Below, in pieces: positions 555 through 43,219 of a DNA stretch of 49,906 nucleotides. This stretch comes from an uncultured Rikenellaceae bacterium. Its GTDB lineage: Bacteria; Bacteroidota; Bacteroidia; Bacteroidales; Rikenellaceae. The stretch is taken from the NCBI GenBank assembly GCA_944414825.1, contig CALYBN010000084.1:1-49906 (forward strand), in the 5' to 3' direction. The notes under the pieces were generated by a model. It made no database searches and had not been told where the DNA came from. It saw only the letters and a program-made list of their open reading frames with translations. How positions within the stretch are numbered: the first letter of the stretch is position 1; each line of letters starts with the position of its first letter. The position numbers were made by a program, and so were the translations under genes.

Positions 555-596
555 GTTCCGGAGAGGAAGAAAGCTCTCGCAGTGCGGCACAAACCT

Positions 597-648
597 TGCA
601 CGGGAGGACCGGGATACGGTATTGATCGTATCCCGGTCCTCCCGTGCA
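597..648. terminator. Perfect 22-bp inverted repeat, probable transcription terminator
   Basis: Arms at 597-618 and 627-648 are perfectly complementary over 22 bp around an 8-nt loop (619-626). It lies 42 bp after the stop of the TonB receptor and before the AI-2E family gene. No T-run follows on either strand, so it is not a textbook intrinsic terminator, but stem length and position fit transcript termination or 3' end protection. Confidence 0.7.
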
Positions 649-724
649 GCGTCTCTACCCCCGACAATTATGCAGAGCACTCGCCGAGCGGGCACAGGCG
701 CACTTCACACCCCGCGCCAAACAC

Positions 725-1783: not shown

Positions 1784-1815
1784 TATCGGGTGCCCTATCC
1801 GCTCAGAAAGACAAA

Positions 1816-1838
1816 CGACGAGTCACCGCGGCTCGTCG
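1816..1838. terminator. Convergent terminator hairpin
   Basis: CGACGAG (1816-1822) pairs with CTCGTCG (1832-1838), and a T-G wobble plus a C-G pair extend the stem inward. A T-rich tract follows on each strand (ataatacttt on plus, TTTGTCTTTC on minus). It lies between the convergent AI-2E family gene and prmA and could serve both. Confidence 0.6.
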
Positions 1839-1858
1839 CATAATACTTTTACAGCAAA

Positions 1859-2683
1859 TTACTTACGGCAGCGGAACGAAGCCCATCCATCCCTGACGCG
1901 CGTTGCCTCGGGAGTCAGACCCAACGAAAGGGCCTTCTCATGGATCACCTCCAGATCCTGCTCCAGAATACCGCTCATCAACAGAAAAGCACCCGGGTTG
2001 AGAGCCACAGCATAACGATCCATATCTGCCAGCAGAATATTGCGATTGATATTGGCCAGGATGAAGTCATAATGCCGCCCCTCGATCGCCGACACGTCAC
2101 CCAGCAGAGGTGTAACCCGATCGGCCACGCCGTTGACCGCGACATTCTCGGAACAATTCTCGTAGGCCCATTCATCAATGTCGACGGCATCCACTTGTTC
2201 GGCGCCCAATTTGGCAGCCACGATGGCCAGCACACCGGTCCCGCTACCCATGTCGAGCCCGCGGCGCCCCCGGAAATGCTCGTCAAGGATACCGGCCGTC
2301 ATCAGCCACGTGGTAGCATGATGGCCCGTCCCGAACGACATCTTGGGCATGATCACCACCTCCACCGCACAATCGGGTCGCGGATCGTGGAACGGCGCCC
2401 GAATCACGCAACGCCCTTCCACCTCGACAGGTGTGAAGTTCGACTCCCAGAGGGCGTTCCAATTGACGGTCTCGATGGTCGTATAGTGGCATTCGACGCC
2501 CGTCGTGCGCAGGAATGCATCCACCTCCTCACGGCATTCGGCCAGCCGATCCTCGCGGATGTAGGCTTTCAGGCTGGTATCCTCCTGTTCGAAACTTTCG
2601 AAAGGGAAATCGGCCAACTGGGCCATACAGATTTCGGAATGTAGGGCGTCCGGAGTCGGAATGAGAAGCTGAATGTAGTTCAT
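1859..2683 (-). CDS. prmA: Ribosomal protein L11 methyltransferase PrmA
   Basis: A 274-residue class I SAM-dependent methyltransferase. PrmA trimethylates lysines and the N-terminus of ribosomal protein L11 in the cytoplasm. The sequence has an N-terminal alpha/beta substrate-recognition domain (about 1-95), a linker with PKMSFGTGHHATT that is diagnostic of PrmA, the SAM-binding motif GLDMGSGTGVLAI, and the catalytic-region motif DFILANINRNILL. The start at MNYIQLLIPT is chosen because upstream residues read into the divergent xerD. Length is close to the family norm. It is transcribed away from xerD with 45 bp between the starts. Confidence 0.95.
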   Translation of the reverse strand: MNYIQLLIPTPDALHSEICMAQLADFPFESFEQEDTSLKAYIREDRLAECREEVDAFLRTTGVECHYTTIETVNWNALWESNFTPVEVEGRCVIRAPFHDPRPDCAVEVVIMPKMSFGTGHHATTWLMTAGILDEHFRGRRGLDMGSGTGVLAIVAAKLGAEQVDAVDIDEWAYENCSENVAVNGVADRVTPLLGDVSAIEGRHYDFILANINRNILLADMDRYAVALNPGAFLLMSGILEQDLEVIHEKALSLGLTPEATRVRDGWASFRCRK

Positions 2684-2700
2684 CGTCGCAAAAGTTTTGT

Positions 2701-2719
2701 TAACTTCGCCGTAAAGATA
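2701..2719. promoter_or_regulatory. Divergent prmA/xerD promoter region
   Basis: In the 45-bp gap, the minus strand reads TATCTTTA (2712-2719, 7 of 8 matches to TAnnTTTG), giving about a 22-nt prmA leader. The plus strand reads TAACTTCG (2701-2708, 7 of 8), giving about a 14-nt xerD leader. The two candidate -7 boxes nearly touch, so the promoters would compete for polymerase. No clear -33 element is seen for either. Confidence 0.4.
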
Positions 2720-2728
2720 GGAATAATC

Positions 2729-3649
2729 ATGGAGAGTTATCGCACCGACTGGGAGAGCCTGACACAAAATTACACCGATTTTCTGCGCTTCGAGAAGAAT
2801 CTGTCGGCCAACACCGTGGAATCTTATCTGCGCGATCTGGCACAACTGCGCTCTTACGTCGAGCACGAAACCCCCGGCCGCCTGCCTGCGGAGGTAACCT
2901 CCGAACAGATCGAAGGATTCATGGCCACGGTCTACGACCGGGGAGCCGAGTGCAGCAGTCAGGCCCGGGTTCTGAGCGGCGTGAAAAGTTTTTTTAACTT
3001 CTTAATGATCTGCGGATTGATCGACACCTCACCCACGGAGTTTGTCGAAACCCCGAAACTGGGACGCAAACTGCCCGACGTGCTGAGCGTAGAGGAGATC
3101 GACGCCATCATCGGCAGCATCGACCTCAGCCTCCCCCAGGGGCATCGCAACAAGGCAATGCTCGAAACGCTGTACAGTTGCGGCCTGCGCGTATCGGAAT
3201 TGATTTCTCTGCGGATGGGCGACTTGTTCTTCGACGATGGGTTCATCCGTGTCACGGGCAAGGGCAACAAGCAGCGTCTGGTCCCGATCAGCGACACGGC
3301 CCGCGACAATATTCTGCTCTGGCTCGGCCAGCGCCGTACGATGAAGATCGATGCCAAGCATCAGGAGTACGTCTTTCTGAATCGCAACGGCCGCCGACTG
3401 ACTCGTGTCATGGTATTCACCATCATCCAGCGCGCGGCCGAGAATGCCGGCATCCACAAACAGGTGAGTCCGCACACCTTCCGACACTCCTTCGCCACCC
3501 ATCTGCTCGAGGGCGGCGCCAGTATCCGGCAGGTGCAGGAGATGCTGGGTCACGAATCAATCCTCACCACCGAAATCTACACCCATCTGGATCGCACCCA
3601 CCTGCGCCAAAGTCTGCAACAACATCACCCGCTCGAGAAAAAAAAGTAG
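2729..3649 (+). CDS. xerD: Site-specific tyrosine recombinase XerD
   Basis: A 306-residue tyrosine recombinase for resolving chromosome dimers at dif with a XerC partner. It has an N-terminal SAM-like DNA-binding domain (about 1-100) and a C-terminal catalytic domain. All catalytic residues are visible: Arg154 (CGLRVSEL), Lys178 (TGKGNKQR), His249 and Arg252 (HTFRHSF), His275 (GHES) and Tyr284 (IYTH). The wording GLRVSEL and GKGNKQRLVP is typical of XerC/XerD rather than phage integrases, and no mobile element surrounds it, so it is called housekeeping. XerC versus XerD is decided only by overall resemblance. It converges on kdsC across a 70-bp gap with no clear terminator. Confidence 0.88.
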   Translation: MESYRTDWESLTQNYTDFLRFEKNLSANTVESYLRDLAQLRSYVEHETPGRLPAEVTSEQIEGFMATVYDRGAECSSQARVLSGVKSFFNFLMICGLIDTSPTEFVETPKLGRKLPDVLSVEEIDAIIGSIDLSLPQGHRNKAMLETLYSCGLRVSELISLRMGDLFFDDGFIRVTGKGNKQRLVPISDTARDNILLWLGQRRTMKIDAKHQEYVFLNRNGRRLTRVMVFTIIQRAAENAGIHKQVSPHTFRHSFATHLLEGGASIRQVQEMLGHESILTTEIYTHLDRTHLRQSLQQHHPLEKKK

Positions 3650-3719
3650 TGCGCTCATCGGCACCTGCCCGACATTTTCACCGGCCCGACAATCTTCACC
3701 CCTTTTTCCGCTCTCGCCC

Positions 3720-4256
3720 CTAGTGCGACCGCACGCAATTCACACCGTACAGATCTTTGGCCCAGTCGCCCCGGGCGCGCAACACTTGTTCCACCACGTC
3801 GCGCACGCAACCGCGACCCCCGTCGAACTGCGACACATAACGGGCAGCCTCGACGATCTCCATGGCCGCATCAGCCGGGCAAACCGGCATCCCCACATGG
3901 CACATGCACTCCAGGTCGGGAATATCGTCCCCCATGAACATCACCTCGTCACGTTCGAGCGACAGTTCCTCCATCAACCCCTTCAAAACAGTCAGTTTAT
4001 CAGCCACATTGGGATAGAAGTGTTTCACGCCCAGCATCCGGAAGCGCGTCTCGAGCGTTGGCCCCCGCCCGCCGGTGATGATCGCCACGGTATAGCCGTG
4101 TTTCAGGGCATAGGCTACGGCATAGCCATCCTTGGCATAATACGTACGAATGAAATCACCATCAGCCAGCGGCACGATACCCCCGTCGGTAAAGACCCCG
4201 TCGACGTCGAACACGAAGGTGGTTATTTTGGCAATGTCTTCTTTGAAGTTTCCCAT
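3720..4256 (-). CDS. kdsC: 3-deoxy-D-manno-octulosonate 8-phosphate phosphatase (KdsC)
   Basis: A 178-residue HAD-superfamily phosphatase, the C0-cap tetrameric KdsC type. It hydrolyses KDO-8-phosphate to KDO for the lipopolysaccharide inner core. The nucleophile motif is FDVDGVFTDGG with Asp17 and Asp19; the second motif is AIITGGRGPT, a conserved Lys lies in ADKLTVLKG, and the Mg-binding motif is MGDDIPDLECM. The start at MGNFKEDIAK is set by the family length and gives a 34-bp overlap with the upstream DUF2520 gene, implying coupled translation. It is last in the unit that begins with the YihY-type gene. Confidence 0.92.
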   Translation of the reverse strand: MGNFKEDIAKITTFVFDVDGVFTDGGIVPLADGDFIRTYYAKDGYAVAYALKHGYTVAIITGGRGPTLETRFRMLGVKHFYPNVADKLTVLKGLMEELSLERDEVMFMGDDIPDLECMCHVGMPVCPADAAMEIVEAARYVSQFDGGRGCVRDVVEQVLRARGDWAKDLYGVNCVRSH

Positions 4257-5005
4257 ATATTCTTGCTCAACATGATATAAATACTCTTCAGATCGGGTTT
4301 CTCGCGCAACATCTCGCAATGACGGCTCTTGGTCTGAAAATCGTTGCGAACGGCCGGCCCGGTCTGTGTCAGACGCGGCGACGAAGCATCAGCCGCCTTG
4401 TGTGCCGTTTCGAGAATCAACGGACGGAGCAGCGAGAAATCCAGCCCCGCCTCAGCCAACAACTCCTCACCCACCGTATACATATAATTCGTGAAATTGC
4501 AGGCAAACACCGCCGCCAGGTGCAGCATCGCCCGCTGGGCCGAATCCATCCGCACCACCCGCTCCGAAAGCGCCTCGGCCACTTCCGTCACACAGGCCAG
4601 CGCCTGTGCCGTCGCACCTTCCACCAGCAGGGGGACCGTCCGGAAATCAATCCGCCGTCCCTTCGTAAAGGTTTGCAACGGATACAACACCGCCCGATGG
4701 TGTACCTTCGGGGCCAGCGCCTCCAATTCGGTTGTTCCCGAGGTATGGGCCACCACGGCATTTCCGGCTTCAAACGAAGCGGCCACCGAAGCGATCGCTC
4801 GGTCGGTAACGGCAATCAGGTAGAGATCCGCCTGCATGACCTGTGCTCCGTCGTCCGTATACGCTGCACCGCACTGAGCGGCCAACTCCCGGCCTGCAGC
4901 GCCGTTGCGGGCATAGATCTGCACCGGAGGCATCCCCGCCTCGGTCAGGGCCAGCGCAAAAGCCTGGGCCACATTCCCGCTACCGACAATTACAATTCGT
5001 TTCAT
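4223..5005 (-). CDS. Rossmann-like and DUF2520 domain protein (NADP-dependent oxidoreductase-like)
   Basis: A 260-residue protein with an N-terminal nucleotide-binding Rossmann fold (MKRIVIVGSGNVAQAFALAL, residues 1-20) and a helical DUF2520 C-terminal domain. The layout resembles F420-dependent NADP reductases and 6-phosphogluconate dehydrogenase-like enzymes. The substrate is unknown in the family. In Bacteroidetes it commonly sits beside kdsC, as here, where the genes overlap by 34 bp, suggesting a role near envelope precursor metabolism (inference). The last ~20 residues, beyond the overlap, are poorly typical and may reflect the overlap constraint. Confidence 0.85.
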   Translation of the reverse strand: MKRIVIVGSGNVAQAFALALTEAGMPPVQIYARNGAAGRELAAQCGAAYTDDGAQVMQADLYLIAVTDRAIASVAASFEAGNAVVAHTSGTTELEALAPKVHHRAVLYPLQTFTKGRRIDFRTVPLLVEGATAQALACVTEVAEALSERVVRMDSAQRAMLHLAAVFACNFTNYMYTVGEELLAEAGLDFSLLRPLILETAHKAADASSPRLTQTGPAVRNDFQTKSRHCEMLREKPDLKSIYIMLSKNIWETSKKTLPK

Positions 5006-5026: not shown

Positions 5027-6334
5027 TTAAATCAAGTCCGTGAGGCGGACATTCTCCGGCGACTCAAAAGCCGTCTGCTGCAATCGGTCGATCACTCCGC
5101 TGACCCGAGCCGCCTCGGCCGTAGCATTGATATTGATCGCCGAACTGCTCCCGCTACACTCCACAGCACTCACCACATCGTACACCGTCAGTTCATGCAC
5201 ATCGCGGGCCGGCGTATAAAGATTCACCTTCTCATCGGCATCGCTCCGGACCGACACGACCAGTCCCGCCTTCTCCAGTGCGAACACCACATCGCGCACG
5301 GTTCGTACTGGCAGATCCAGTTCCGAAGCCACATCCTCGGAATTCACCGGCCCTCGGTTATCCATAAAGTGTCTGACGATGGTCAACATGGCGGCCACCA
5401 TCACCTTCCGTCGTTGATCGACGCTCATGTGCATCGCCTCTCGCTCCTGCTCATAGCGGCTCACGTTCTGGTACGCGAACGACAGTTCTGCGCCAAACAG
5501 CAAAATCTGCCAACTCGACTGCAACCAGATCAGAAACAACGGCAGGGCGGCAAAGCTTCCATAAATAGCATTATAAGAGCTCACCTGCGTCTGAATATAG
5601 ACGTACGCCACCTGGAAGATCTGGAATACCGTACCTGCGATCACCCCTGCGATCAACGCCCCGACGATCTTGACCCTCGTATTGGGCATCACATAATAGA
5701 TAAAGGCAAACAACAGCCACATCGAGATCAGCGACACGAAACTGAACAGAACGTCGAGAGCCCCCGAGTCGGAGAGCTCTGCCAGATGGGTCCGCACGTA
5801 GATGGCCAGACTATTGGAGATGATCCACAGAATCGGGGCAACGAACACCACCGTAATATAGTCGCTGAACTTGCGGGCCAGAGAGCGCGGTTTGCGCACC
5901 TCCCAGATATAATTGAAAGCGCTCTCAATGTTTCCGAACACCTTCATCACCGACCACAGCAGCACCACGAAACCCACCGAGGCCACCACCCCGCCGCGCG
6001 TACGCAGCAGCAGTTTATTGGCAAACTCGATCACATTGTCGATCAACGTCGAATACTGCGGAAATTGCATATAGAGATACTCATTGAAGTTGGTCTCCAT
6101 GCCGAATCCCTTGACGACGCCGAAGATCAGGGCCGCAATGGGCACGATCGACATCAGCGTATAGAACGTGAGGGCCGCCGAACGGATGATCAGGCCATGT
6201 TCGCTAACGCCCCGGGCCGTGAAGATCAGAATCTTGAGCTGCCGGATACCCCACCGCACCTTACGGGAACCGAACTCTGACTCTTTTTTCTGCCAGATGT
6301 CGTTGGTGATGAAGTCGATGATCCGTTTAATCAT
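5027..6334 (-). CDS. YihY/virulence factor BrkB family inner-membrane protein
   Basis: A 435-residue membrane protein with a cytoplasmic N-terminus (about 1-45), about six transmembrane helices (about 45-280) and a soluble C-terminal region of about 150 residues that looks like a winged-helix fold (SEDVASELDLPVRTVRDVVFALEKAG). Family residues include AALTFYTLMSIVPIAA, FGNIESAFNYIWEV and YGSFAALPLFLIWLQ. These proteins were once called RNase BN, which is now considered wrong for YihY; the function is unknown, with transport suggested. The C-terminal helix-turn-helix-like extension is common in Bacteroidetes members. It heads a three-gene unit with a perfect -7 box upstream. Confidence 0.9.
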   Translation of the reverse strand: MIKRIIDFITNDIWQKKESEFGSRKVRWGIRQLKILIFTARGVSEHGLIIRSAALTFYTLMSIVPIAALIFGVVKGFGMETNFNEYLYMQFPQYSTLIDNVIEFANKLLLRTRGGVVASVGFVVLLWSVMKVFGNIESAFNYIWEVRKPRSLARKFSDYITVVFVAPILWIISNSLAIYVRTHLAELSDSGALDVLFSFVSLISMWLLFAFIYYVMPNTRVKIVGALIAGVIAGTVFQIFQVAYVYIQTQVSSYNAIYGSFAALPLFLIWLQSSWQILLFGAELSFAYQNVSRYEQEREAMHMSVDQRRKVMVAAMLTIVRHFMDNRGPVNSEDVASELDLPVRTVRDVVFALEKAGLVVSVRSDADEKVNLYTPARDVHELTVYDVVSAVECSGSSSAININATAEAARVSGVIDRLQQTAFESPENVRLTDLI

Positions 6335-6355
6335 ACGCGTAAGGATTTAGTGCAA

Positions 6356-6363
6356 CAAATATA
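6356..6363 (-). promoter_or_regulatory. -7 box of the YihY-DUF2520-kdsC unit
   Basis: The minus strand reads TATATTTG, a perfect TAnnTTTG Bacteroidales -7 element. A start about 7 nt downstream gives a leader of roughly 15 nt before the ATG at 6334. Confidence 0.65.
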
Positions 6364-6396
6364 CGAAAAAGCACCGTCATATCACACGTTTGCGTG

Positions 6397-7650
6397 CTAT
6401 TTCAGCCACAAAGTCCACAGTGCGCCATCCCGGCTGGTGAAGGCCACGAACGGCCCGCCCCCTTCCGCCACACCCAGATCGCGGGCAATGGCCGCAGCAC
6501 TGAACGGAAAATCGCGTCGCAGAAGATTGATCCGCCGGATACCGTGCTGGCGAAGCTCTTTCCTCATCCGTTTCGGAGCATAGGGTTCCACCGCGACTAT
6601 CTCAAAGACTTTGCCGGGAAGCGACATATCCGGCTCCCGACGAAAGAAAGCAAACGAACTGTCGCTAGCAATACTGGCCCCCAATTCCGTAAAACAGCGA
6701 CGGGCCACGCGGGCTTTGGCCAGCGCCACATCCGGTACGGCCAGCCATCGGAAGTCACTCAACGGAACCCCGGCATCGGGCACCACACTCGCCCGGTCGT
6801 CCGTTGTTTGCAGAGGCGAAGGGCCTGCACTCCTTGCCTCCTCCGCAAGGCCCGGCCCCTGATAGGTATAGCTCACAGTCGCCCACGGAGCGCCCGCCGG
6901 ATTCGACAGCGCTGCTCCTATTAGGGGTTTTGTAATATGCCCACCGGTCTCGACCAGCACCTCCTTGCACTCACCGCCGAGCGACAGCACCGTCACAGCC
7001 GTCTGCGGGCCGAACACCCGGAACGCCTCGTCCACATCGAACAACGGCGACAACTTGACCACTACTTTCGGTGCCACCTCGCGCAGGCGCGGCAGCAACA
7101 TCGAAACATCCGGCGAACAGTCGCTCAAACGAACCAGTTTCCGGCCTTGGGCACTCCGACGGTCCGGGTCGAGATAGAGCAGGTCGGCCCGCAGGTCAGG
7201 ATTCCGATCCAGGAACTCCTCCGCCGAAGCATTCACAACCGTAATATTCGTCAATCCCAGCCGGCGGAAGTTCACCTCGGCCAACCGAGCCAGCACCGGG
7301 TCGCGCTCCACCGTCACCACGCGTCGGAACCCGCTGGCAAGCGCCGCCGTATCAACCCCCAGTCCACAAGTGAGGTCTACACACAGATTCCCCTCGAACG
7401 ACCGATAACGGGCCGTCGGCTCGCTGCTGGCCTGTTCGAAGGCCAGCGAAGGCAGCAGGCATCGGGCTGCATAGTAGGAAGGCAGTTTGGTTCGGGCGCG
7501 CTGGAGATACTTCACCTGCGTGGCAACCAGTGCCGCATGGGGAAGGTGTTTATCGAGCGCCACTCGCACCGGATCGTCGGTCAAGTGCTCCTCCACGGCC
7601 TGCAGCAGCGGATCGCTCAGCAGAAGTTCTACATCGGAAAGGGTCATCAT
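6397..7650 (-). CDS. Class I SAM-dependent methyltransferase with THUMP-like domain
   Basis: A 417-residue protein. The central SAM-binding region is DLTCGLGVDTAALA, followed by VERDP and an AEEFL stretch. The catalytic-region motif is ADLLYLDPDRRS, and the C-terminal part matches the THUMP-like fold seen in a Bacteroidetes/Firmicutes family of predicted RNA methyltransferases. An N-terminal helical segment (1-110) precedes the catalytic domain. The target is unknown; tRNA or rRNA is the likely class (inference). The start is one of two adjacent ATGs at 7650 or 7647; using 7650 gives an ATGA overlap with the comEC stop, typical of translational coupling. Confidence 0.85.
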   Translation of the reverse strand: MMTLSDVELLLSDPLLQAVEEHLTDDPVRVALDKHLPHAALVATQVKYLQRARTKLPSYYAARCLLPSLAFEQASSEPTARYRSFEGNLCVDLTCGLGVDTAALASGFRRVVTVERDPVLARLAEVNFRRLGLTNITVVNASAEEFLDRNPDLRADLLYLDPDRRSAQGRKLVRLSDCSPDVSMLLPRLREVAPKVVVKLSPLFDVDEAFRVFGPQTAVTVLSLGGECKEVLVETGGHITKPLIGAALSNPAGAPWATVSYTYQGPGLAEEARSAGPSPLQTTDDRASVVPDAGVPLSDFRWLAVPDVALAKARVARRCFTELGASIASDSSFAFFRREPDMSLPGKVFEIVAVEPYAPKRMRKELRQHGIRRINLLRRDFPFSAAAIARDLGVAEGGGPFVAFTSRDGALWTLWLK

Positions 7651-24007: not shown

Positions 24008-24031
24008 GGTCATCAGGTTTAAAATAACGAA

Positions 24032-24056
24032 CAATTTTATCATACTGTACGGTACA
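24032..24056 (-). promoter_or_regulatory. sodB promoter with overlapping palindrome
   Basis: The minus strand has TAAAATTG (24032-24039), 7 of 8 matches to TAnnTTTG. A perfect odd palindrome TGTAC-G-GTACA (24046-24056) lies between the -7 box and the expected -33 position, where a repressor would block polymerase. The regulator is unknown. Confidence 0.45.
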
Positions 24057-33218: not shown

Positions 33219-33878
33219 ATGGTAACAGGTTATTTACGGGTAAGTACTTGGAAACAACATCCGGCCAATCAGCAGGATGAAATCAGGCGGTTTGCCGAAA
33301 GTCGGAATCTGGTCATCGACAACTGGGTGACGGAGGTCGTAAGCGGCCGCAAAAACGAACGAGACCGAAAATTAGGAGCTTTGTTGCGGCGCATGAAACC
33401 GGGCGACACACTGATCGTCACGGAAATCTCCCGCCTGAGCAGGACTCTTACCGATATCATGGCCATCATGGGTAAATGCCTCAAGAAAGAGATCTGTCTC
33501 TACACAACCAAAGAAGGATACTCGTTTGACAACACCATTAACAGCAAGGTGTTATGTTTTGCATTCGGCCTCGTGGCCGAAATCGAACGCAACCTGATCT
33601 CCATGCGGACCAAAGAGGCACTGGCACTGCGCAAAGCAGAAGGGATGGTGTTGGGACGCAAAAAGGGAAGTTATACCAAATATAACATACTGGTCGAAAA
33701 CAGACATATCATTCTTCAGATGTTGCACCAAAACAGATCCATCTCGGAAATCTGTAAACGATTCAATCTCTCGCGCGATACATTCGACAAATTTCGTCGG
33801 GCCTATCCCTCCATCCAACAAGCCATAACAGAGAAAGAGTCGCGACGTACCCGGCATTTCAGACGACACGAACTTTAG
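33219..33878 (+). CDS. Serine recombinase (DNA invertase family), likely invertase of the pilus promoter
   Basis: A 219-residue serine resolvase/invertase. The catalytic Ser9 lies in GYLRVST, followed by EISRLSRTLTDIM and AEIERNLISMRTKEAL, all typical of invertases. A C-terminal helix-turn-helix (ISEICKRFNLSRDTF) should bind the recombination site. In Bacteroides, members of this family flip promoters of capsule and surface genes. It lies directly before an inverted-repeat-flanked promoter and the fimbrillin genes. The 196-bp gap before it has a small GGGC/GCCC hairpin near 33184-33196 but no clear promoter. Confidence 0.88.
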   Translation: MVTGYLRVSTWKQHPANQQDEIRRFAESRNLVIDNWVTEVVSGRKNERDRKLGALLRRMKPGDTLIVTEISRLSRTLTDIMAIMGKCLKKEICLYTTKEGYSFDNTINSKVLCFAFGLVAEIERNLISMRTKEALALRKAEGMVLGRKKGSYTKYNILVENRHIILQMLHQNRSISEICKRFNLSRDTFDKFRRAYPSIQQAITEKESRRTRHFRRHEL

Positions 33879-33916: not shown

Positions 33917-34142
33917 ACCAACGTTAAAACATAGGGACAGAATTGGTTGTGGGAGGGACTATGTTTAAACGTTGGTTTTTACTGGATGCAAGATTAATGC
34001 CTGTTATAAAACCCAATACCATAGAATCAATAGCTCCAAAAGACTCCGTATGGCAATTATTTTGCTTATTCTTATGGGATGTATAAAAAAGAATTATATA
34101 TTTGCATTTGTAAACCAACGATTTAACCAACATTTAAACAAG
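33917..34142. repeat. Inverted repeats flanking a candidate invertible promoter
   Basis: Copies sharing the core AAACGTTGGT (or its complement) occur at 33917-33934 (ACCAACGTTAAAACATAG), 33959-33976 (inverted, CTATGTTTAAACGTTGGT), 34126-34142 (ACCAACATTTAAACAAG) and, partly, 34114-34126. Copies 1 and 2 match in 17 of 18 positions as inverted repeats around 24 bp. Copies 2 and 3 are inverted around a 149-bp AT-rich segment (33977-34125), the likely invertible unit. The core differs by one base from the AAACGTTCGT consensus I recall for Bacteroides Mpi-type sites. The 337-bp gap 33879-34215 contains no gene. Confidence 0.7.
34097..34104 (+). promoter_or_regulatory. -7 box of the pilus operon, inside the invertible segment
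   Basis: TATATTTG is a perfect TAnnTTTG match lying 10 bp inside the nearer downstream repeat and 22 bp before the 34126 copy, pointing at the pilus genes. The leader to 34216 would be about 105 nt. No matching -33 is seen. The assembled orientation is therefore ON. Confidence 0.6.
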
Positions 34143-34215
34143 AGACTAACGCAGTATTCATGTTATAATCAGATCAATCAGGCTTTATCACTCAAGAAAA
34201 CGCCCCACACCTAAC

Positions 34216-35538
34216 ATGAGAAAAACAGGGAAAATATGGATATATATACTCTGTCTGATGGGCAGTATGCCACTCTATGCATCCCCACAGACAGATTCTC
34301 TCTCCATATATTTTCAACGGGGCTATGCGATAGTAGAACCATCGTTCCGCAATAACCGCAGCACGCTCCAGACCTCTATTGCGATGCTGAAAAAGTTGGA
34401 AGCAGATTCCTGGCGCCATCTTACGGAGATACACCTGAAAGGGAATGCCTCCCCCGACGGATCGGCTTCGGCCAATCTGCGGCTAACTCAAAAAAGGGTC
34501 GACGCCATGCTGAAATACCTGCGCGAAGAGGTCCAAATACCTGATTCCCTGATTACGATAACAACCGAAGGAGTCGACTGGGAGGGATTAACCGTCATGG
34601 TGGAAAACGATGCGACCTGTCCGGCACGAGAGGAACTCCTGGATATTCTATACAACACGCCGGAGTGGATCTATAACGACCAGAACCAGATCGTGGACGG
34701 ACGACGGAAACAACTGATGGATCTTCGTGGAGGCGTCCCATACAACTATCTGGCAGAGAAATTCTTCCGGGATCTGCGCAACACCCGTATCACACTCCAC
34801 TACCAAAGCAATGACGTCGTGGGAATTCAACCTGACAGCAACACACGAAGCACCTGTGAATCGGGATCTGACTCCACCACACACGAACCTCTTCCCGAAC
34901 CATCCTCCCCATGCGACTCATTACCCGATCTTTCGTCGGAAGCACACGAGGAGCCCACAAAGGCTTCGCATAGCACGGCCACAGAAAGTGCCCAGTCCAC
35001 CTCTTCGGAATTCGCTCAACCCGCACAACAAACTCCGCAGCAACGCTTGGCCCTGAAAACCAACCTGCTGTACGATGCCATTCTGATGCCCGACCTGGAG
35101 ATTGAGTACCGTATCGACGATCGTTGGTCGGTTGCAGTCGACGGCAGCGTGGCCTGGTGGAAAAAAGACGCCAAACACAAATACTACCAGATCGCCACGA
35201 TCGTCCCGGAGGGCCGTTACTGGTTCCGGACACAGAAACCCTGGCACGGCCACTATGTCGGGCTTTTTGCCGGCGGCAGCTGGTACGATCTGGAAAACGG
35301 CGCCCGGGGATACAAAGGAGAATTCTTCATGACAGGCCTGAGTTACGGCTATATGTTCCCCATCGGTCGCGCGCTCTCCCTGGAAGCCGGAATCGGACTG
35401 GGCTTCCTGCACACAACCTACGAAGAGTATCTGCCCATCGACGGACACTATGTCTACCAGCAAACTAGCCGAACCAACTGGATCGGTCCCGTCCGGCTCA
35501 AATTAGCCCTGGCATGGCGACTTTGGAATCAACATTAA
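34216..35538 (+). CDS. DUF3575 outer-membrane protein with OmpA-like domain
   Basis: A 440-residue exported protein. A signal peptide (about 1-22, cut near LYAS) is followed by an OmpA-like peptidoglycan-binding domain (about 30-190; LKGNASPDGSASANLRLTQ and a RVDAMLKYL helix). Residues about 205-275 are a low-complexity Ser/Pro/Thr/Glu linker, then a DUF3575 beta-barrel (about 275-440) with LALKTNLLYDA and YLPIDGHYVYQQ. DUF3575 genes occur in Bacteroidetes fimbrillin loci; the fusion to an OmpA-like part could anchor the pilus apparatus to the wall (inference). It is first after the invertible promoter. Confidence 0.85.
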   Translation: MRKTGKIWIYILCLMGSMPLYASPQTDSLSIYFQRGYAIVEPSFRNNRSTLQTSIAMLKKLEADSWRHLTEIHLKGNASPDGSASANLRLTQKRVDAMLKYLREEVQIPDSLITITTEGVDWEGLTVMVENDATCPAREELLDILYNTPEWIYNDQNQIVDGRRKQLMDLRGGVPYNYLAEKFFRDLRNTRITLHYQSNDVVGIQPDSNTRSTCESGSDSTTHEPLPEPSSPCDSLPDLSSEAHEEPTKASHSTATESAQSTSSEFAQPAQQTPQQRLALKTNLLYDAILMPDLEIEYRIDDRWSVAVDGSVAWWKKDAKHKYYQIATIVPEGRYWFRTQKPWHGHYVGLFAGGSWYDLENGARGYKGEFFMTGLSYGYMFPIGRALSLEAGIGLGFLHTTYEEYLPIDGHYVYQQTSRTNWIGPVRLKLALAWRLWNQH

Positions 35539-35556
35539 GAAGAAGGGGTGTAGACT

Positions 35557-36570
35557 ATGGATAAAAAACGTATCATATTCCTCCTTCTGTTGAGCGGCAC
35601 GCTGTTGTTGGGCGGTTGTCGCAAAGAGCTCTGCTATGATCATGATCACCATGGTCTGCGGCCACGCCTCCTATTGCAATCCGATTGGGAACAGGAGTGG
35701 GAACGCGACTACGGAATGGCCTGGCAGGACAACTGGCCCGACAGACACGGCATACACTACGACTCGCTCCGTCCGGAGGTTCCGAGCGGTATCGCTGCAT
35801 TCGTATTCCATGAGGACGGTTCGCGTACGGAACGCCATCTACCCTCCGAAGGTGGAGAACTTGCGATGAGTGAGGGTGAAAAATCCATCCTGCTTCACAA
35901 TGACGACACACGTTATATTGTTTTCGGCGACATGAACATATCCACCGCAGCATCGGCTACAACCCGCACGAGAACCCGCTCAACCTACAGCGAGGAGCAT
36001 GCCGACGAAACAACGGTCAATGCTCCAGACATGCTTTATGGTGCCTGGATTGAAAGTTACACGGCCACTCCATCCTCAGAGCCGGATTCACTGAACGTAA
36101 CGTTACGCCCGCTGGTTTACACCTATCTGATCCGATATGAATTCTCCGCAGGGTTGGAACACGTGACCCTGGCTCGCGGAGCTCTTTCGGGCATGGCCCG
36201 ATCGGTCTATCTACAAAACGGTCAGACCAGTCAGGAAACGGCTACAATCCTTTTCGACTGTGAATTAAAAGAGTATGGAGTGGAAACGCAACTCACCTCA
36301 TTCGGCATACCCGCCTTCCCCGGGGATCACTACGTAATGCGTCAAAGCACTCAATCGCAAGGCCTCAACCTGGAGGTGATGCTCAAAAACGGAAAGTTCA
36401 AAACATTCGAATTCGACGTAACCGACCAACTGGCCTCGCAACCACGCGGAGGAGTGATCACCGTCAGCGACCTCACCGTAACGGACGACGAGGCGGGAGG
36501 TGATGCCGGATTCAACGTCGATGTGGAAGATTGGGGCAAGTATGAGGATATCGAATTGCCCCTGGATTAA
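35557..36570 (+). CDS. DUF5119 fimbrial-locus lipoprotein
   Basis: A 337-residue lipoprotein: signal peptide with lipobox ending LLGGC (Cys21), followed by RKELCYDHDHH, the hallmark start of DUF5119. A beta-rich mature region follows, with a Thr/Arg-rich stretch near residue 130. DUF5119 proteins accompany type V pili and resemble Mfa2/FimB anchors in position. A role as anchor or accessory subunit is likely (inference). It is 18 bp after the DUF3575 gene. Confidence 0.85.
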   Translation: MDKKRIIFLLLLSGTLLLGGCRKELCYDHDHHGLRPRLLLQSDWEQEWERDYGMAWQDNWPDRHGIHYDSLRPEVPSGIAAFVFHEDGSRTERHLPSEGGELAMSEGEKSILLHNDDTRYIVFGDMNISTAASATTRTRTRSTYSEEHADETTVNAPDMLYGAWIESYTATPSSEPDSLNVTLRPLVYTYLIRYEFSAGLEHVTLARGALSGMARSVYLQNGQTSQETATILFDCELKEYGVETQLTSFGIPAFPGDHYVMRQSTQSQGLNLEVMLKNGKFKTFEFDVTDQLASQPRGGVITVSDLTVTDDEAGGDAGFNVDVEDWGKYEDIELPLD

Positions 36571-36623
36571 CACCAGAGAATCAAATTCATAAAAACATAT
36601 TAACCTATTAAACCCCCTGTAAA

Positions 36624-37664
36624 ATGATGAAAAAGAGTTTATTCGTACTTACTGCAGTAGTAGCGGTATGGACAAGTTGCAGCAAGACCGAGACGGTCGA
36701 ACAATCTCAAAGCAAAGCAATCGGCTTCACGCAGGCCTATATCGGGAATCCTGTGGAATCAAAAGCTGTGAGCGTAATTGAAAAGGCCACCATTGATGAG
36801 TTTATCGTCTACGGTGGCTATAATGACATGACACACGTATTCAACGGCGTCTCCGTAACGGGCACAGCCGGTGCCGACGACTGGACCTACGATGTGACAC
36901 GCTACTGGATCCCCGGGCAGACCTACAAGTTTGCAGCCTACGCACCCAGCGCTGTTACGGGCAACGGAACGATCGAACCCGATTTCACAAACGGAGCTCT
37001 GAATTTTCTGGGCTATACCTCAAGCCCGCTTATTCAGAACGACCTGATCTACGCCACTAGTGGCGATATCAAGACCGAGGACCCGATCGCCATGGCGCCG
37101 GAGAAGATTCAGTTCCAATTCTCACACCTGCTGTCGATGATCAAGTTTACATTTATCAGCGGCTTCGGGAACGACATCACGGTGACCGTCAGCGACCTGA
37201 AGGTCTCGGGAATGATCTCCGAGGGCGACTATACCGGCAGTACACAGACATGGACTCCGGGTTCGAACACTGTCAACGTGGATGCGCCTTTCTCTGAAAT
37301 GGCCGTTCAAGAGGCGGAGAACACAACCGATGGCAATAGATCGGCTTCGAGCGTTGATTTTGCCGTAATTCCGCAAACGATCGTCGGCCAGGACGGTACC
37401 GGCACCAAGGTGGCCGTCTCCTTTACGGTCAAAGTACAGGATAACAAAGACCAATACATCGTGGGAAGTGCTGATGCTGGCGTACCCGTTTCGGCAATAC
37501 TACCTGCCTATACCTGGACGCCCGGCAACCGTTACAACTACAACGTGACGATCAAAGGCGAGAACGTCAGCCTCTACCCGATCGAATTCGGCACGCCCAA
37601 TGTTACGCCGATCGTAGATGCCTCTTTCGATGGCAACGACGAGGTCATTCTGCCTGAAAACTAA
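36624..37664 (+). CDS. Fimbrillin family lipoprotein (candidate major pilin)
   Basis: A 346-residue lipoprotein with Cys19 in WTSCSK and a fimbrillin (Mfa_like_1) pattern: an AIGFTQAY strand near the N-terminus, then ESKAVSV with Lys47 at the position where type V pilins are cut by an Arg/Lys protease, and a C-terminal TWTPGNRYNYNVTI strand. The N-terminal strand before the cut would be removed to allow strand-exchange polymerisation. It is the first fimbrillin in the operon, and a strong hairpin directly follows it, which fits the most abundant subunit. Confidence 0.85.
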   Translation: MMKKSLFVLTAVVAVWTSCSKTETVEQSQSKAIGFTQAYIGNPVESKAVSVIEKATIDEFIVYGGYNDMTHVFNGVSVTGTAGADDWTYDVTRYWIPGQTYKFAAYAPSAVTGNGTIEPDFTNGALNFLGYTSSPLIQNDLIYATSGDIKTEDPIAMAPEKIQFQFSHLLSMIKFTFISGFGNDITVTVSDLKVSGMISEGDYTGSTQTWTPGSNTVNVDAPFSEMAVQEAENTTDGNRSASSVDFAVIPQTIVGQDGTGTKVAVSFTVKVQDNKDQYIVGSADAGVPVSAILPAYTWTPGNRYNYNVTIKGENVSLYPIEFGTPNVTPIVDASFDGNDEVILPEN

Positions 37665-37671
37665 CAGTATT

Positions 37672-37701
37672 GCAGGGCGGGATGGGAACACCCCGCCCTG
37701 C
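37672..37701 (+). terminator. 10-bp GC-rich hairpin after the first fimbrillin
   Basis: GCAGGGCGGG (37672-37681) pairs perfectly with CCCGCCCTGC (37692-37701). No T-run follows on the plus strand, so it may act as a partial terminator or 3' stabiliser that makes the upstream fimbrillin mRNA more abundant than the downstream genes. The rest of the 134-bp gap has no clear promoter. Confidence 0.6.
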
Positions 37702-37798
37702 TCCTAAAAAAAGGTCATACGGAGGAGGGATCCCTTTCCCTAGACTCTGGAGAATATCATTCCCTAATTTTTGATCCGAACCACAAAGAAGCGATACA

Positions 37799-38767
37799 AT
37801 GAAAATGGGACGAATCATCAGGACGATCACTATAGGTGTGGCTATCGCCGGCCTCGCCACAGGCTGCATCCAACACAAAACGGAACTTCCTCCAACCGAC
37901 GACACGGCCATCGGATTCACTCCACAAATGACCCGTTCGGCAGTAACAGAACTGGGCGAGGGGGATTCCTTCGCCGTGTGGGGCCGTGAGAGCCACAGCG
38001 GGATCGCTCAGATGATCCTCTCGCAAGAAGAGGTCCACTGCTCGGAAGGTATCTGGACGTATGACCACATCCGCTACTGGAAACTCCAGGCAGACTATGA
38101 TTTCTATGCCATTTATCCACACGATACGCCGGGAGCCGAACTCCAAAACAGCAGTGCGGGAGCGACACCCCGCATGGTCGTGACGGATTTCGACGCCCGC
38201 AACGCCCTAGATCTGATGGCGGCCGAACAAACCGGAATCCTCTATACGGGCAATCCTGCTCCGGTGGTCTTCACTTTCCGGCATCTGCTCTCGAAGGTGA
38301 ACATAATCGGGCGCCTTGATCCCGCTCTTCAGGAAGCTGGCATCTCGGCACAAATCGTCTCGGCAAAACTCTACGGCATGCCGGCCCAGGGAAGTTGTAC
38401 GATCGAAAGTGGAAATTACGGCAGCTGGAGTTTCGGAGAAGTAACTACGGCCGCCATGCCATTCTGTTCGGCCGGTCAAACAGCTCTCTCCGCAAGCGGC
38501 AGCTCGTTATTCGGTGAATTGTTGCCCTTTCCGCAGGTCCTCACAGAAGATCTGGTCCTGGAGATCGAGTACGAATACACCGATGCCAACTACGCGACAA
38601 ACCGTTTCTCAAAGAGTATCCGCCTGATCGACGCCGGTGTAACCGAATGGAATCCTGCAACGGGTTATCGTTACAGTTTCACAGTAGGAACGGAATACAT
38701 ACTTTTCGACAAACCCGAAGTAGTGCCCTGGAACTCCGCTTCGGGAGGCATCATCACCGTAGAATAA
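37799..38767 (+). CDS. Fimbrillin family lipoprotein
   Basis: A 322-residue lipoprotein: Cys23 in LATGC, then AIGFTPQMTRSAV with Arg46 at the expected protease site, a WTYDHIRYWKLQADYDFYAIYP stretch and FTFRHLLSKVNI, both typical of Mfa_like_1 fimbrillins. It is probably a minor subunit (inference). It is 134 bp after the first fimbrillin and 18 bp before the next gene. Confidence 0.85.
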   Translation: MKMGRIIRTITIGVAIAGLATGCIQHKTELPPTDDTAIGFTPQMTRSAVTELGEGDSFAVWGRESHSGIAQMILSQEEVHCSEGIWTYDHIRYWKLQADYDFYAIYPHDTPGAELQNSSAGATPRMVVTDFDARNALDLMAAEQTGILYTGNPAPVVFTFRHLLSKVNIIGRLDPALQEAGISAQIVSAKLYGMPAQGSCTIESGNYGSWSFGEVTTAAMPFCSAGQTALSASGSSLFGELLPFPQVLTEDLVLEIEYEYTDANYATNRFSKSIRLIDAGVTEWNPATGYRYSFTVGTEYILFDKPEVVPWNSASGGIITVE

Positions 38768-38785
38768 CATGATTCTGAACGCGTC

Positions 38786-39889
38786 ATGAAAACAACTGCT
38801 CTCTATCTGCTTTCGTTTGCCCTGCTCCTGCTGGCCGGCTGTCAAAAGGAGTTTCCGATGACAAATGCACGCCTCTCGGAGGAGGCGATCTGTTTCGATT
38901 CGCCCGGAGTAATGCTCGGGGTCGAAAGCAGTCCCTGGTCGAAAGCACCCATCGAGACGACCCTTCCGACAGGCAGTTCGTTTGGAGTCTTGGGCTATTG
39001 TCTGGCCAATTACGACGGTTCGACCCAGCTCAATCCCACAACCGGCACGACTCCCTGGGAATCAAAAATGGTCCTCTGCTCGCCCCATCTGTTCTACAAA
39101 CGGGAGGTGAAATTCAACGGTACGACGTGTTATTACACCGGGAAACAAGAGCGGTGGTACGAACCGTCGGACTACCTCTACACCTTCTATGCCTATTATC
39201 CCTACGGCGACACGTACTATGCCATCGAACCCATCACACAGTCCGGTATCGGAGCCCCCTCGCTGACCTTCTCCATGCCTTTTTCCGGCGGCGAGATCTC
39301 CACACCGCGCGACATCAATCAGATCCCCGACGCCATGGCTGCTGCAGCCGTAGACGTTACACGGGGCGACGGCCACGTGAAACTACAATTCCAACACCTG
39401 CTCGCGGGTTTCAATTTCACCGTGAACAACTACAACGAGACAAATGACCTGACGATTCATGGCGTGCAGGTGTCGGGGAATTTCTACCGATCGATCAAGA
39501 TCAAGACCAATCAAGGATTGGAATACCCTTCAGAAACCTTTGCCGGGACTTTTACCTTTCTGGATGGAAGCAACGATGCCGACGATATCACGGTAGAACA
39601 TCAAAAAACCGTAAAAAAACTAGCCGACCAGACCCTGATGTTGATTTCCAATCTAAGCGCCGCTCCCAACTATATCGGTAACGACATCACCATCCTACTC
39701 GATTACTCGTTCATGGGGAAGCGCACGACGGGCAAGTCCATTGCACTTCCTGGGGGATACCTGCCACAGGGAGGTACGCTCTATACGGTTGAACTGAACT
39801 TCATCGGCGATGCTTTCATACTGAACTTCGTGGTAGATAACAATCAGGTGTGGGAGGATGGAGGCGACAGCGGAATACAATTCGAATAA
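38786..39889 (+). CDS. Fimbrillin family lipoprotein
   Basis: A 367-residue lipoprotein with Cys19 in LLAGC. The fimbrillin pattern includes AICFDSPG, SPWSKAPIE with Lys53 at the protease site, YLYTFYAYYPYG, and LQFQHLLAGFNFTVNN. A minor subunit is the simplest reading. It is followed after 7 bp by the large lipoprotein, so they are coupled. Confidence 0.84.
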   Translation: MKTTALYLLSFALLLLAGCQKEFPMTNARLSEEAICFDSPGVMLGVESSPWSKAPIETTLPTGSSFGVLGYCLANYDGSTQLNPTTGTTPWESKMVLCSPHLFYKREVKFNGTTCYYTGKQERWYEPSDYLYTFYAYYPYGDTYYAIEPITQSGIGAPSLTFSMPFSGGEISTPRDINQIPDAMAAAAVDVTRGDGHVKLQFQHLLAGFNFTVNNYNETNDLTIHGVQVSGNFYRSIKIKTNQGLEYPSETFAGTFTFLDGSNDADDITVEHQKTVKKLADQTLMLISNLSAAPNYIGNDITILLDYSFMGKRTTGKSIALPGGYLPQGGTLYTVELNFIGDAFILNFVVDNNQVWEDGGDSGIQFE

Positions 39890-39896
39890 CGGAATC

Positions 39897-42287
39897 ATGA
39901 AACGGAAAACACTATATCGGAGCCTTTCTCTCGTGACGGCGCTTATCCTGCTGGCCGGGTGTGCAAAAGACCCGGAGGCAAATATCCCGACAGGCAACCG
40001 GAGAGGATTCACCCTCTCGGCTGTTGCCGAAAGCATGTCTCCCGAGCGGATCATCACCCGGGTTGCCGATCCCAAAAGCGACGCTGAGTGCGAAATCCGC
40101 ACACTGCATGTTTTTCTGTTCGGACCAGACGAAGAGTATCTCACCACTAAAGACGATTCTTATCCCTATCAGGGATATCAATCCGTAGGCTCCGCCATGC
40201 TACACATCGACGGAGACGCTTTCGCCGATCCGACCAAAGCAGGTAATGCCACAATCTACGTAGTGGCGAACGTCGAACCGGGGACCTTTGGTGCGCTCAC
40301 GGCGGAAGGATACCCTGAAAAGATACGAAACAAGGCCGATTTCGACGCATTCTACTACCGTCCCACGAAACGGGAAACGCTGACAACTCTCCCGGTGAAC
40401 GGAATGCCGATGTTCGGTTCGGCAACAGGCGTCGACCTGACACAAGTCAACGGTTCGGAAATGATCGAAATGAAAGCATTGATGGCACGTATCGATTTCT
40501 CGTTTCAGATCAATGCCACGAACGGTTCGATCGGAGTCTTACCCTCGCTGGTCCTGACCGAATGCGAGGTCAGAAATATGGCCACGGCTGTTCCGTTCAT
40601 AACTCCGGCCGACAGTGCGGAAAGCAATCTGGACATGAACCAGGACGGCCAACCCGATGCCACCACCTCCATGGTTCAATACATGGACCCTTCGGAAAAT
40701 ACCTTATACAACCAACAGGGCGAAGCGACACTCTCTTTTTATGTCTACGAAAACCTGCGCCATCCGGGATATGACGGATACCCCAATACACCCTATTCCT
40801 ATCCGGCAGGGCTCGATCCGGATCACTACCAGCGTTACAAACCGTTGTTGGCCATCAAGCCCGATCAGGATACGATTCCGGCCACCCATGTGATCTTCCG
40901 GGGAATCTTCACCGATGTAGACAATATCGACTATCAGGCTACCTGCACGATCTTTCTGGGCGGCAACCCCGAGAATGACTTCAATGTCAGGAGAAACCAC
41001 CAATACCGGAACAAGGTAAGCATATCCGGCATTACGGCAGCCGGAAGCAATCCCTCGGATGTGGTCACGTTCGACGCCCGCATCAACGTAGAGCACACCA
41101 GCCCCTACTACCTCTCAATCCTACAGCATAAGAATCTGGATGCGCATTTCAATATCATTCCGCTGGACGTCTATCTATTCGACAACGAATCGGCCAACCA
41201 GATAGAGATTCGCATCGACAATCCGACCGTCAACAACTGGTTCCGGATCGAACGGGTACCAGCCGATGTGATGCGCAGCGGTCAGGCGGCATCAAATCAA
41301 CTCAGCCATCCGGGTGAGCCCTTCGCCCCCGGAACCGGAAAACGAAGATTCTTCACACAGAATCTGATCAGTGACCCCACTCAACTGGCCAACAGTACGA
41401 CAGCCGTCATGAACGACAGAGACCGGATCTATATCTACGTGGACGAAAACATTAGCGTCAATACCCGCCAGGCCAATCTGGTAGTGGACTACAAGGAGAA
41501 CGGTTCCATAAAGGACACGCAGACCATCACGCTCGTCCAACACGGTTTGCGACCCGTCCGCGTGGAAAACGGAGGAGTCTATCAATATACGATCTATGTA
41601 GAGGAGTACGAGGAGTACAGAAACCACTTCGATCCGCTCTCCCAATGGGATTCCGAACAGATTTACGACGGTCTGCCCTGGGGCCCGGCCAACATGGGCG
41701 AGATCAACACCGGGTGGCTAATAGGCTACTTGCCCCTCGAAGATGCTATTGAAAACCTTTTCCAGGGGAAAAAGGGGACCATTGCCATCCTGATGGCAAC
41801 CGGGATATTCGATCAGAACTGGACCGGGACTCAACCCGACGGCCCTGCCAAAGCGATGATTCTAGACGAGATTCCGCAAACAGCGGCCGAGTACTGTTAT
41901 CGGAAGAACAAGACCGATGCCAACGGCATGATCTCCGAGGAGAACACCTACTGGTATCTCCCGGCCATCCGCGAACTGGAAAACACCCTGACGACATATT
42001 ATCCTGTCTACAAGGAGTTTCAGGAAAATTTCTACTGGTCGTCTGCCGCAGCGCGTCGAGAAGGAGGACTAACTTATGAAGCCTCGGAATATGCCCGTGC
42101 GACCATGGCCACCCTCAACGCAGACGGGTCCATTTCCCATAAGGTCAGCGGCGCAGACGAATACTATGATCCCACTCTTGGGCCCGGCAGCCGCTACGGG
42201 AAAGCCCTGCGCACGGAATCCCTGCGGATCAGGGCCGTTTATCGACCGGCAAACGGAGGTTTGATCGATGGGGACACCTATCCCTGA
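39897..42287 (+). CDS. Large fimbrial lipoprotein, DUF4906-like, candidate tip adhesin
   Basis: A 796-residue lipoprotein with Cys22 in ILLAGC. An N-terminal fimbrillin-like region has GFTLSAVAE and RIITRVADP with Arg55 at the protease site. The middle (about 100-500) is beta-rich and resembles DUF4906. A BACON-like repeat lies near 508-550 (LVVDYKENGSIKDTQTITLVQHG), and the C-terminus (about 590-790) has TYWYLPAIRELENTL and FYWSSAAARR, resembling the Lcl/DUF1566 lectin-like fold. Its size, last position and extra domain suggest the pilus tip (inference). The start is ATG 39897; an earlier in-frame ATG would lie inside the preceding gene. Confidence 0.8.
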   Translation: MKRKTLYRSLSLVTALILLAGCAKDPEANIPTGNRRGFTLSAVAESMSPERIITRVADPKSDAECEIRTLHVFLFGPDEEYLTTKDDSYPYQGYQSVGSAMLHIDGDAFADPTKAGNATIYVVANVEPGTFGALTAEGYPEKIRNKADFDAFYYRPTKRETLTTLPVNGMPMFGSATGVDLTQVNGSEMIEMKALMARIDFSFQINATNGSIGVLPSLVLTECEVRNMATAVPFITPADSAESNLDMNQDGQPDATTSMVQYMDPSENTLYNQQGEATLSFYVYENLRHPGYDGYPNTPYSYPAGLDPDHYQRYKPLLAIKPDQDTIPATHVIFRGIFTDVDNIDYQATCTIFLGGNPENDFNVRRNHQYRNKVSISGITAAGSNPSDVVTFDARINVEHTSPYYLSILQHKNLDAHFNIIPLDVYLFDNESANQIEIRIDNPTVNNWFRIERVPADVMRSGQAASNQLSHPGEPFAPGTGKRRFFTQNLISDPTQLANSTTAVMNDRDRIYIYVDENISVNTRQANLVVDYKENGSIKDTQTITLVQHGLRPVRVENGGVYQYTIYVEEYEEYRNHFDPLSQWDSEQIYDGLPWGPANMGEINTGWLIGYLPLEDAIENLFQGKKGTIAILMATGIFDQNWTGTQPDGPAKAMILDEIPQTAAEYCYRKNKTDANGMISEENTYWYLPAIRELENTLTTYYPVYKEFQENFYWSSAAARREGGLTYEASEYARATMATLNADGSISHKVSGADEYYDPTLGPGSRYGKALRTESLRIRAVYRPANGGLIDGDTYP

Positions 42288-42391
42288 TCAATAGCCTTCC
42301 CGATCAATCGCCGAGCAAAAGAGAGCAACCTGAAGCATAAGAGAAGGCTCCCGGTCCTATGGGAAGGGGCATCTCCTTCACAAACAACAAG

Positions 42392-42416
42392 GGGGAGGTC
42401 AATGTTCGACCTCCCC
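42392..42416. terminator. Bidirectional terminator between the pilus operon and tpiA
   Basis: GGGGAGGTC (42392-42400) pairs perfectly with GACCTCCCC (42408-42416) around a 7-nt loop. Both flanks are T/A-rich (TGTTTATA on plus, TTGTTGTTTG on minus), fitting termination of both converging units. Confidence 0.75.
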
Positions 42417-42460
42417 TGTTTATAGCCTCTCCGGAATATCCGGCGCTACTTTTTTTCTAC

Positions 42461-43219
42461 TTATTTCGAAAAGCTCTTGCCGATAGCCAGGAAATCATCT
42501 GCTACGAGAGCTGCTCCACCGATCAGACCACCGTCCACGTCGGGTTTCGAAAAGAGTTCCGGAGCGTTCGACGGTTTGGCACTACCTCCGTACAGGATCA
42601 CGGTATCGTCAGCCTTGGCGCCGAACTTGCTGCGCAGCACCTCACGGATATAGGCATGAATCTCCTGAGCCTGTTCTGCGGTAGCCGTTTTGCCGGTACC
42701 GATAGCCCACACAGGCTCATAAGCAATGATGAGTTTCTCGAACTGAGCAGCCGTCAGGTTGAAAACAACCTCTTCGATCTGAGCTTTCACCACCTCGAAG
42801 TGTTTGCCAGCCTCACGCTCGGCCAGGTTCTCGCCCACGCAGTAGATCGGAGCCAGGTTGTTGGCGAAGGCCTGCTCCATCTTCTTGTTGAGCGTAGCGC
42901 TGGTCTCGCCATAATACTGGCGGCGCTCCGAGTGGCCCAGGATGACATACTCCACGCCCAGTGAAGCGATCATGGCTGCCGAAACCTCGCCCGTATAGGC
43001 ACCTTTGGCTTCAGCGGCACAGTTCTGAGCGCCGACAGCGATACCCGTTCCGCGCGTCACCTTCATCACCTCCGAAAGGTGCGTAAAGGGAGGGCATACG
43101 ATAAAGTTCACGCAAGAGCATACGCTACCCTTGCCAGCCACTACGGCTTTTGCCAATTCGACACCCTCCACCGGAGTGGTGTTCATTTTCCAGTTGCCTG
43201 CTACTACTTTCTTTCTCAT
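42461..43219 (-). CDS. tpiA: Triosephosphate isomerase TpiA
   Basis: A 252-residue TIM-barrel enzyme that interconverts dihydroxyacetone phosphate and glyceraldehyde-3-phosphate. Catalytic residues: Lys11 in GNWKMN, His in ILGHSERR, Glu in [11 protein letters not shown]. The phosphate-binding GGSAKPSNA stretch is present. It lies 37 bp after lysS on the same strand and is probably co-transcribed. Confidence 0.97.

Follow-up and report, generated by a model that had tools for sequence, protein, structure and literature searches.

A probable serine-invertase promoter switch with overlapping 12 bp sites at a type V pilus operon of an uncultured Rikenellaceae bacterium

The 49,906 bp stretch of Rikenellaceae DNA analysed here (the window) contains what is very probably a phase-variation switch, in which a serine recombinase would invert an adjacent 143–155 bp segment carrying the promoter of a type V pilus operon; we put the probability of this reading at about 0.9. 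The species is represented by one assembly, approximately 64% complete, and the case is made by comparison of sequences. In the mechanism we propose, the recombinase (33219–33878) would bind a pair of facing sites, join them and cross over at a central TT/AA dinucleotide, with inversion of the 143–155 bp that lie between. In the assembled orientation the promoter box TATATTTG faces the pilus operon and the switch would be ON; after inversion the promoter would face the 3′ end of the recombinase gene, the pilus genes would lose their promoter, and the switch would be OFF. Pilus expression would presumably follow the orientation of the segment. Crossover at an outer site would shift a 12 bp unit to the other end of the segment, and with flipping either end could gain or lose sites.

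The gene adjoining the switch encodes a serine, not a tyrosine, recombinase, as the sequence-only reading of this DNA had proposed. It is a Mpi-like protein of 219 amino acids and a probable invertase, encoded on the + strand, with a PF00239 domain (1.6e-33) and a C-terminal helix-turn-helix (HTH). The best NCBIfam model is NF009949, 'master DNA invertase Mpi family', for which the recombinase scores 260 bits and the cut-off is 272. Residues R7, S9, R72 and R75 are invariant in the recombinase alignment, and its relatives of solved structure are gamma-delta resolvase and DNA invertases. Plasmid matches to the recombinase are distant (less than 60% identity), and no relatives were found in the viral contigs scanned.

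Downstream of the switch, the operon spans 34216–42964 with all genes on the + strand, and type V pilin domains are present, in agreement with its initial designation as a type V pilus operon. The first gene (34216–35538) encodes a DUF3575 protein (PF12099, 2.1e-37) and is followed by a DUF5119 protein gene (35557–36570; PF17145, 1e-32), three genes for fimbrillin-like (Mfa_like_1, PF13149) proteins (36624–37664, 8.3e-26; 37799–38767, 3.8e-24; 38786–39889, 3e-07), and a gene for a large FimA/DUF4906 protein (39858–42287; PF06321, 3.9e-06, and PF16249). The last gene of the apparent operon (42359–42964) has no family match. The assignment to type V pili is based on the presence of three Mfa_like_1 genes together with one FimA/DUF4906 gene, the product of which has a weak match to the FimD tip adhesin model NF052322 (46 bits, cut-off 170) and is a probable tip adhesin.

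The gap that runs from the recombinase stop codon (33878) to the start of the pilus operon (34216), read directly from the sequence, was reported at first reading to hold three to four copies of a repeat: copy A (33917–33934, ACCAACGTTAAAACATAG), copy B in reverse orientation (33959–33976, CTATGTTTAAACGTTGGT), copy C (from 34112, AAACCAACGATTTAAC) and copy D (34125–34140, AACCAACATTTAAACA). Two analyses bear on these. First, the longest inverted repeat in the gap with no more than one mismatch is 16 nt (33962–33977 and 34125–34140), a length reached in none of 300 dinucleotide shuffles of the gap (shuffle maximum 14) and thus more than chance would give. Second, a position-weight matrix trained on 28 sites, all from other genomes and none from the window, provides an independent test because the repeats under study did not contribute to it. 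When both strands of the window are ranked, B (27.5 bits), C (24.6 bits) and D (24.1 bits) take the first three places, with the next match at 16.0 bits; copy A is separated from them, ranking tenth at 6.8 bits. All of the reported features are at the places given, and B, C and D hold up as sites. A was rejected as a recombination site on the basis of this score and its lack of an inner half-site; it is better seen as one arm (5′) of a hairpin in which B supplies the 3′ arm.

The left site, at copy B, is GTTTAAACG-TT-GGTTTTTAC (33963–33982, + strand) with the crossover dinucleotide at 33972–33973. The right end has two sites on the − strand, C (34108–34127, with its central AA at 34117–34118) and D (34120–34139, with its central AA at 34129–34130), which overlap with a 12 bp period and have in common the segment CGATTTAACC (34119–34128); this 10 bp segment also occurs in locus L048 and in the Bacteroides and Phocaeicola loci described below. 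The consensus across loci is GTTTAANCG-TT-GGTTTA, a description rather than a test, taken from 32 sites that were chosen by eye and aligned on the TT. The invertible core corresponds to 33974–34116 (143 bp) if B recombines with C and extends to 34128 (155 bp) if B recombines with D, as indicated by the spacing from promoter box to site centre, the conservation of core length and the reversed homologous cores of L044 and L047. The sequence-only reading had correctly placed an invertible segment between B and the right-hand sites, and its bounds (33977–34125) are replaced by these. Two site copies lie between the promoter and the pilus gene in the assembled state. A second switch elsewhere in the window was sought and rejected: a lone site-like match (24021–24040, 16.0 bits) has no facing partner and is probably due to chance. 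At the promoter-distal end of the core, window positions 33985–34010 (GATGCAAGATTAATGCCTGTTATAAA) recur in the reversed core of L047 (alignment score 27, 99th percentile 25), and this stretch might serve as an accessory element or act like an enhancer, or the similarity may be due to chance.

A TAnnTTTG promoter lying between the repeats and directed outwards is present in the window. Its −7 box, TATATTTG (34097–34104, + strand), stands 13 bp away from the site C centre and points at the pilus operon as first described. The gap holds no other TAnnTTTG, and the 49.9 kb window has 15 over both strands (4 on one, 11 on the other). This motif is the −7 consensus in Bacteroides, where an invertible promoter has been weakened by replacing it (PMC4747536). 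Transcription is predicted to start at about 34111, inside site C, and this position fits with observations in B. intestinalis, where comparable invertons, with repeats that overlap the one used by Mpi, have their transcription start within the proximal repeat (PMC8375218). There is no clear −33 element in the promoter, and the + strand gave no match in a general sigma-70 scan, the coverage of which excludes Bacteroides promoters.

The hairpin formed by A (33917–33934) and B (33959–33976) is followed by TTTTT (33917–33981 overall, + strand) and overlaps the left site. It is weak in the window (−22.8 kcal/mol, z −1.47). Hairpins are present at the matching position in all six relatives examined, with z below −4.5 in five of them (for example, −13.9 in L048, −6.5 in L056 and −4.7 in L042), and because these are stronger, the structure is likely to act as a terminator of the recombinase gene. 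Beside the left site, such a terminator would probably shield the recombinase from the reversed promoter.

Related loci were collected by scanning genome contigs with a profile of nine aligned recombinases, which gave 44 loci, and by whole-genome searches of the window's family, Phocaeicola and Bacteroides. An orthologous pilus operon follows the recombinase, with gene order kept, in L042 (from the same genus as the window; genome G001), L044, L047, L057 and L062–L066; in L048, L056, L058, L060 and L067 the recombinase is followed by a DUF3575 gene, and most relatives have such a gene after the switch. The relatives have the same layout of recombinase, site, promoter, site and pilus genes, with the box in either orientation. 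Facing site pairs 90–260 bp apart occur in 19 of 74 distinct regions downstream of recombinases and in none of 74 shuffled ones, a count that is illustrative since those loci supplied training sites; the position of the box was not used in training.

Several features of these loci point to inversion. First, the box is directed towards the downstream gene (ON) in three loci, namely the window, L013/L042 and L053, and there its distance from the right site centre is 13 bp. Second, in 13 loci, some of them close relatives and not independent, the box is near the left centre and directed towards the recombinase (OFF), at 13 bp in 12 of these and at 12 bp in L058. The 13 bp spacing from the right centre when ON, or from the left centre when OFF, puts the promoter at mirror-image positions. 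Third, the cores of L044 and L047 can be matched to the core of same-genus L042, an ON locus, only when reverse-complemented (scores of 41 and 49, versus 27 and 22 in the forward direction; 99th percentile of shuffles, 28). The window core matches the L042 core in the same direction (37 versus 21). Comparison of the window core with that of L048 and the more distant OFF cores gave no alignment beyond the promoter. Apart from pilus operons, the switch module precedes genes of other surface-type proteins: a DUF6562 protein gene in L053 (ON) and an outer-membrane beta-barrel protein gene in L059/L095 (OFF); L061 is a rearranged locus, in which the orthologous pilus operon lies upstream of the recombinase and divergent from it (142–4936 and 6001–6729).

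The strongest evidence for the switch comes from the arrangement of site units in Bacteroides and Phocaeicola. Near-identical copies of the locus are present in P. coprocola (L065), B. propionicigenes (L064) and B. cutis (L066), and the sole difference between L065 and L066 over 12,630 bp is one 12 bp unit, which L065 has at its right end and L066 has, reversed, at its left end. A similar relocation of a unit distinguishes B. ndongoniae (L062) from B. ilei (L063), together with a 46 bp tandem duplication in the first pilus gene. If units are defined as the segments between TT/AA centres (S1, CGATTAAACC; S2, CGATTTAACC), the arrangement is right[S1,S2] in L062 and L065, left[S2] right[S1] in L066, and left[S1] right[S2] in L063, and each of the latter two can be reached from right[S1,S2] by exactly two inversions that use different TT/AA centres. 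Slippage, deletion or duplication was rejected as the cause of the unit differences, since the unit moves by about 150 bp and reverses with nothing else changed. Inversion at an array of overlapping sites, as read from these aligned loci, explains the relocation. The five Bacteroides and Phocaeicola loci all have the core in one orientation only (OFF), and it is from unit relocation that inversion is deduced for them. The arrangement in L064 and L137, with S2 at both ends (S2,S2) and one base off the {S1,S2} pair that their near-identical counterparts carry, is beyond inversion alone and needs a base change too. The right end of the window has the same type of array, and the segment common to C and D is identical to S2; recombination of B with C would keep the array on the right, and recombination of B with D would transfer one of its units to the left end. 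The duplication in B. ilei (L063:7009–7100) lies early in the first pilus gene and shifts the frame relative to B. ndongoniae, and is possibly a second switch of the slippage type.

Alternatively, the repeats might be operators for a regulator, with no DNA inversion involved, for example through the HTH domain of the recombinase acting on the promoter. The promoter is flanked by repeats and the serine recombinase does have such a domain, but operators would leave unexplained the reversed homologous cores, the two promoter orientations at a fixed distance, and the relocation of a reversed unit between otherwise identical loci, and we regard this explanation as scarcely credible. The invertible promoter postulated by the sequence-only reading is supported by the same three lines of evidence: both box orientations in relatives, the reversed L044 and L047 cores, and the relocated units.

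It is a separate question which enzyme inverts the promoter. B. fragilis Mpi acts on many distant sites (PMC4747536), and at about 64% completeness other recombinases may be missing from this assembly; the promoter could be flipped by a recombinase encoded elsewhere in the genome, the adjacent one being a bystander or acting elsewhere. We consider this quite improbable. The assembly has only one other resolvase-family match, weak and partial, and in different genera the recombinase is still accompanied by this type of site and by the switch. Moreover, the module seems to have moved whole between Bacteroides and Phocaeicola: loci are nearly identical across species and genera in P. coprocola, B. 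propionicigenes and B. cutis (L170–L172) and in B. ndongoniae and B. ilei (L173–L174), L170 and L171 agree at 99.87% over 19.8 kb, and comparison of these loci suggests recent horizontal transfer of the entire recombinase–switch–pilus module. The adjacent recombinase remains with the switch across genera, and we infer from this that flipping is its work.

It is also conceivable, although unlikely, that the switch is a fossil which flipped in ancestors and is now locked ON in this lineage. The window and same-genus L042 are both ON, and the flank of the site D centre is slightly diverged (CATTTAAAC). Against this, the recombinase is intact with all of its invariant residues, sites B, C and D score far above the rest of the window, and the 13 bp spacing is kept; we therefore favor a functional switch, and the strain probably still flips.

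Switches of this general kind are familiar. In E. coli an invertible promoter, the fim switch, sets type 1 fimbriae on or off through the tyrosine recombinases FimB and FimE; the pili of the two systems are unrelated, the repeats are different, and the recombinase here is a serine enzyme. The fimbria-like surface protein locus of B. fragilis is reportedly served by tyrosine recombinases, and differs from the present locus in this respect. The two are alike in that promoter inversion controls fimbrial-type genes (Weinacht 2004, cited in PMC12632263). It is established that Mpi-type serine recombinases invert promoters and that B. fragilis has fimbria-like loci subject to phase variation (PMC12632263, PMC4747536). 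The likeness to the Mpi-controlled capsule promoters of B. fragilis lies in a Mpi-like serine recombinase, short sites around ACGTTCGT, and a TAnnTTTG promoter in a 100–200 bp segment. The Mpi site has been published as ARACGTTCGTN (PMC8375218); the window core AAACGTTGGT is one base off this, as had been remarked at first reading, and L141 and L142, relatives from Bacteroides, are of the CGTTCGTTT type. The predicted start inside the proximal repeat is a further likeness, to the comparable invertons of B. intestinalis (PMC8375218). Unlike B. fragilis Mpi, the probable invertase here adjoins a single pilus operon, its site is ACGTTGGT, its sites form overlapping 12 bp arrays, and it scores 12 bits under the Mpi family cut-off; no other cluster of these sites was found in the approximately 64% complete assembly. 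In the hCom2 survey, read-supported invertons lie near fimbrillin genes in groups 137, 112 and 122, of which 137 and 122 are mostly from Bacteroidota (PMC11892184); the likeness to the present switch lies in the neighboring genes.

A parallel to the variable arrays is Tsr19 and the EPS promoter IVp-I of B. fragilis, where, as reported in PMC4747536, the repeats that separate promoter from operon vary in number and more of them give less transcription. Repeat number in this position can vary here as well; in that system the recombinase is a tyrosine enzyme, the cargo is polysaccharide, and the same account describes no overlapping 12 bp serine-type sites. Nor was a description of overlapping 12 bp serine-invertase sites that shuttle between ends found in the literature, in which the original Mpi and EPS work is represented by the papers that cite it. 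A serine-invertase promoter switch for surface structures is a known kind; a dedicated pilus switch with overlapping, shuttling 12 bp sites appears to be an undescribed form of it. More speculatively, the one to three site units in the pilus mRNA leader might be a heritable and reversible setting of both the expression level and the next flip, with an on/off switch and a rheostat served by one serine invertase; we raise this as a tentative idea rather than as the expected outcome.

This analysis identifies a probable serine-invertase switch for type V pili, the surface pili of gut Bacteroidota, in both Rikenellaceae and Bacteroidaceae, with its sites and crossover defined. Relocated 12 bp units would record past inversions at the sequence level, and assemblies suffice to recognise them with no need of reads. 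They also raise the question of whether the number of site units tunes pilus expression, as has been reported for the tyrosine-recombinase switch of B. fragilis.
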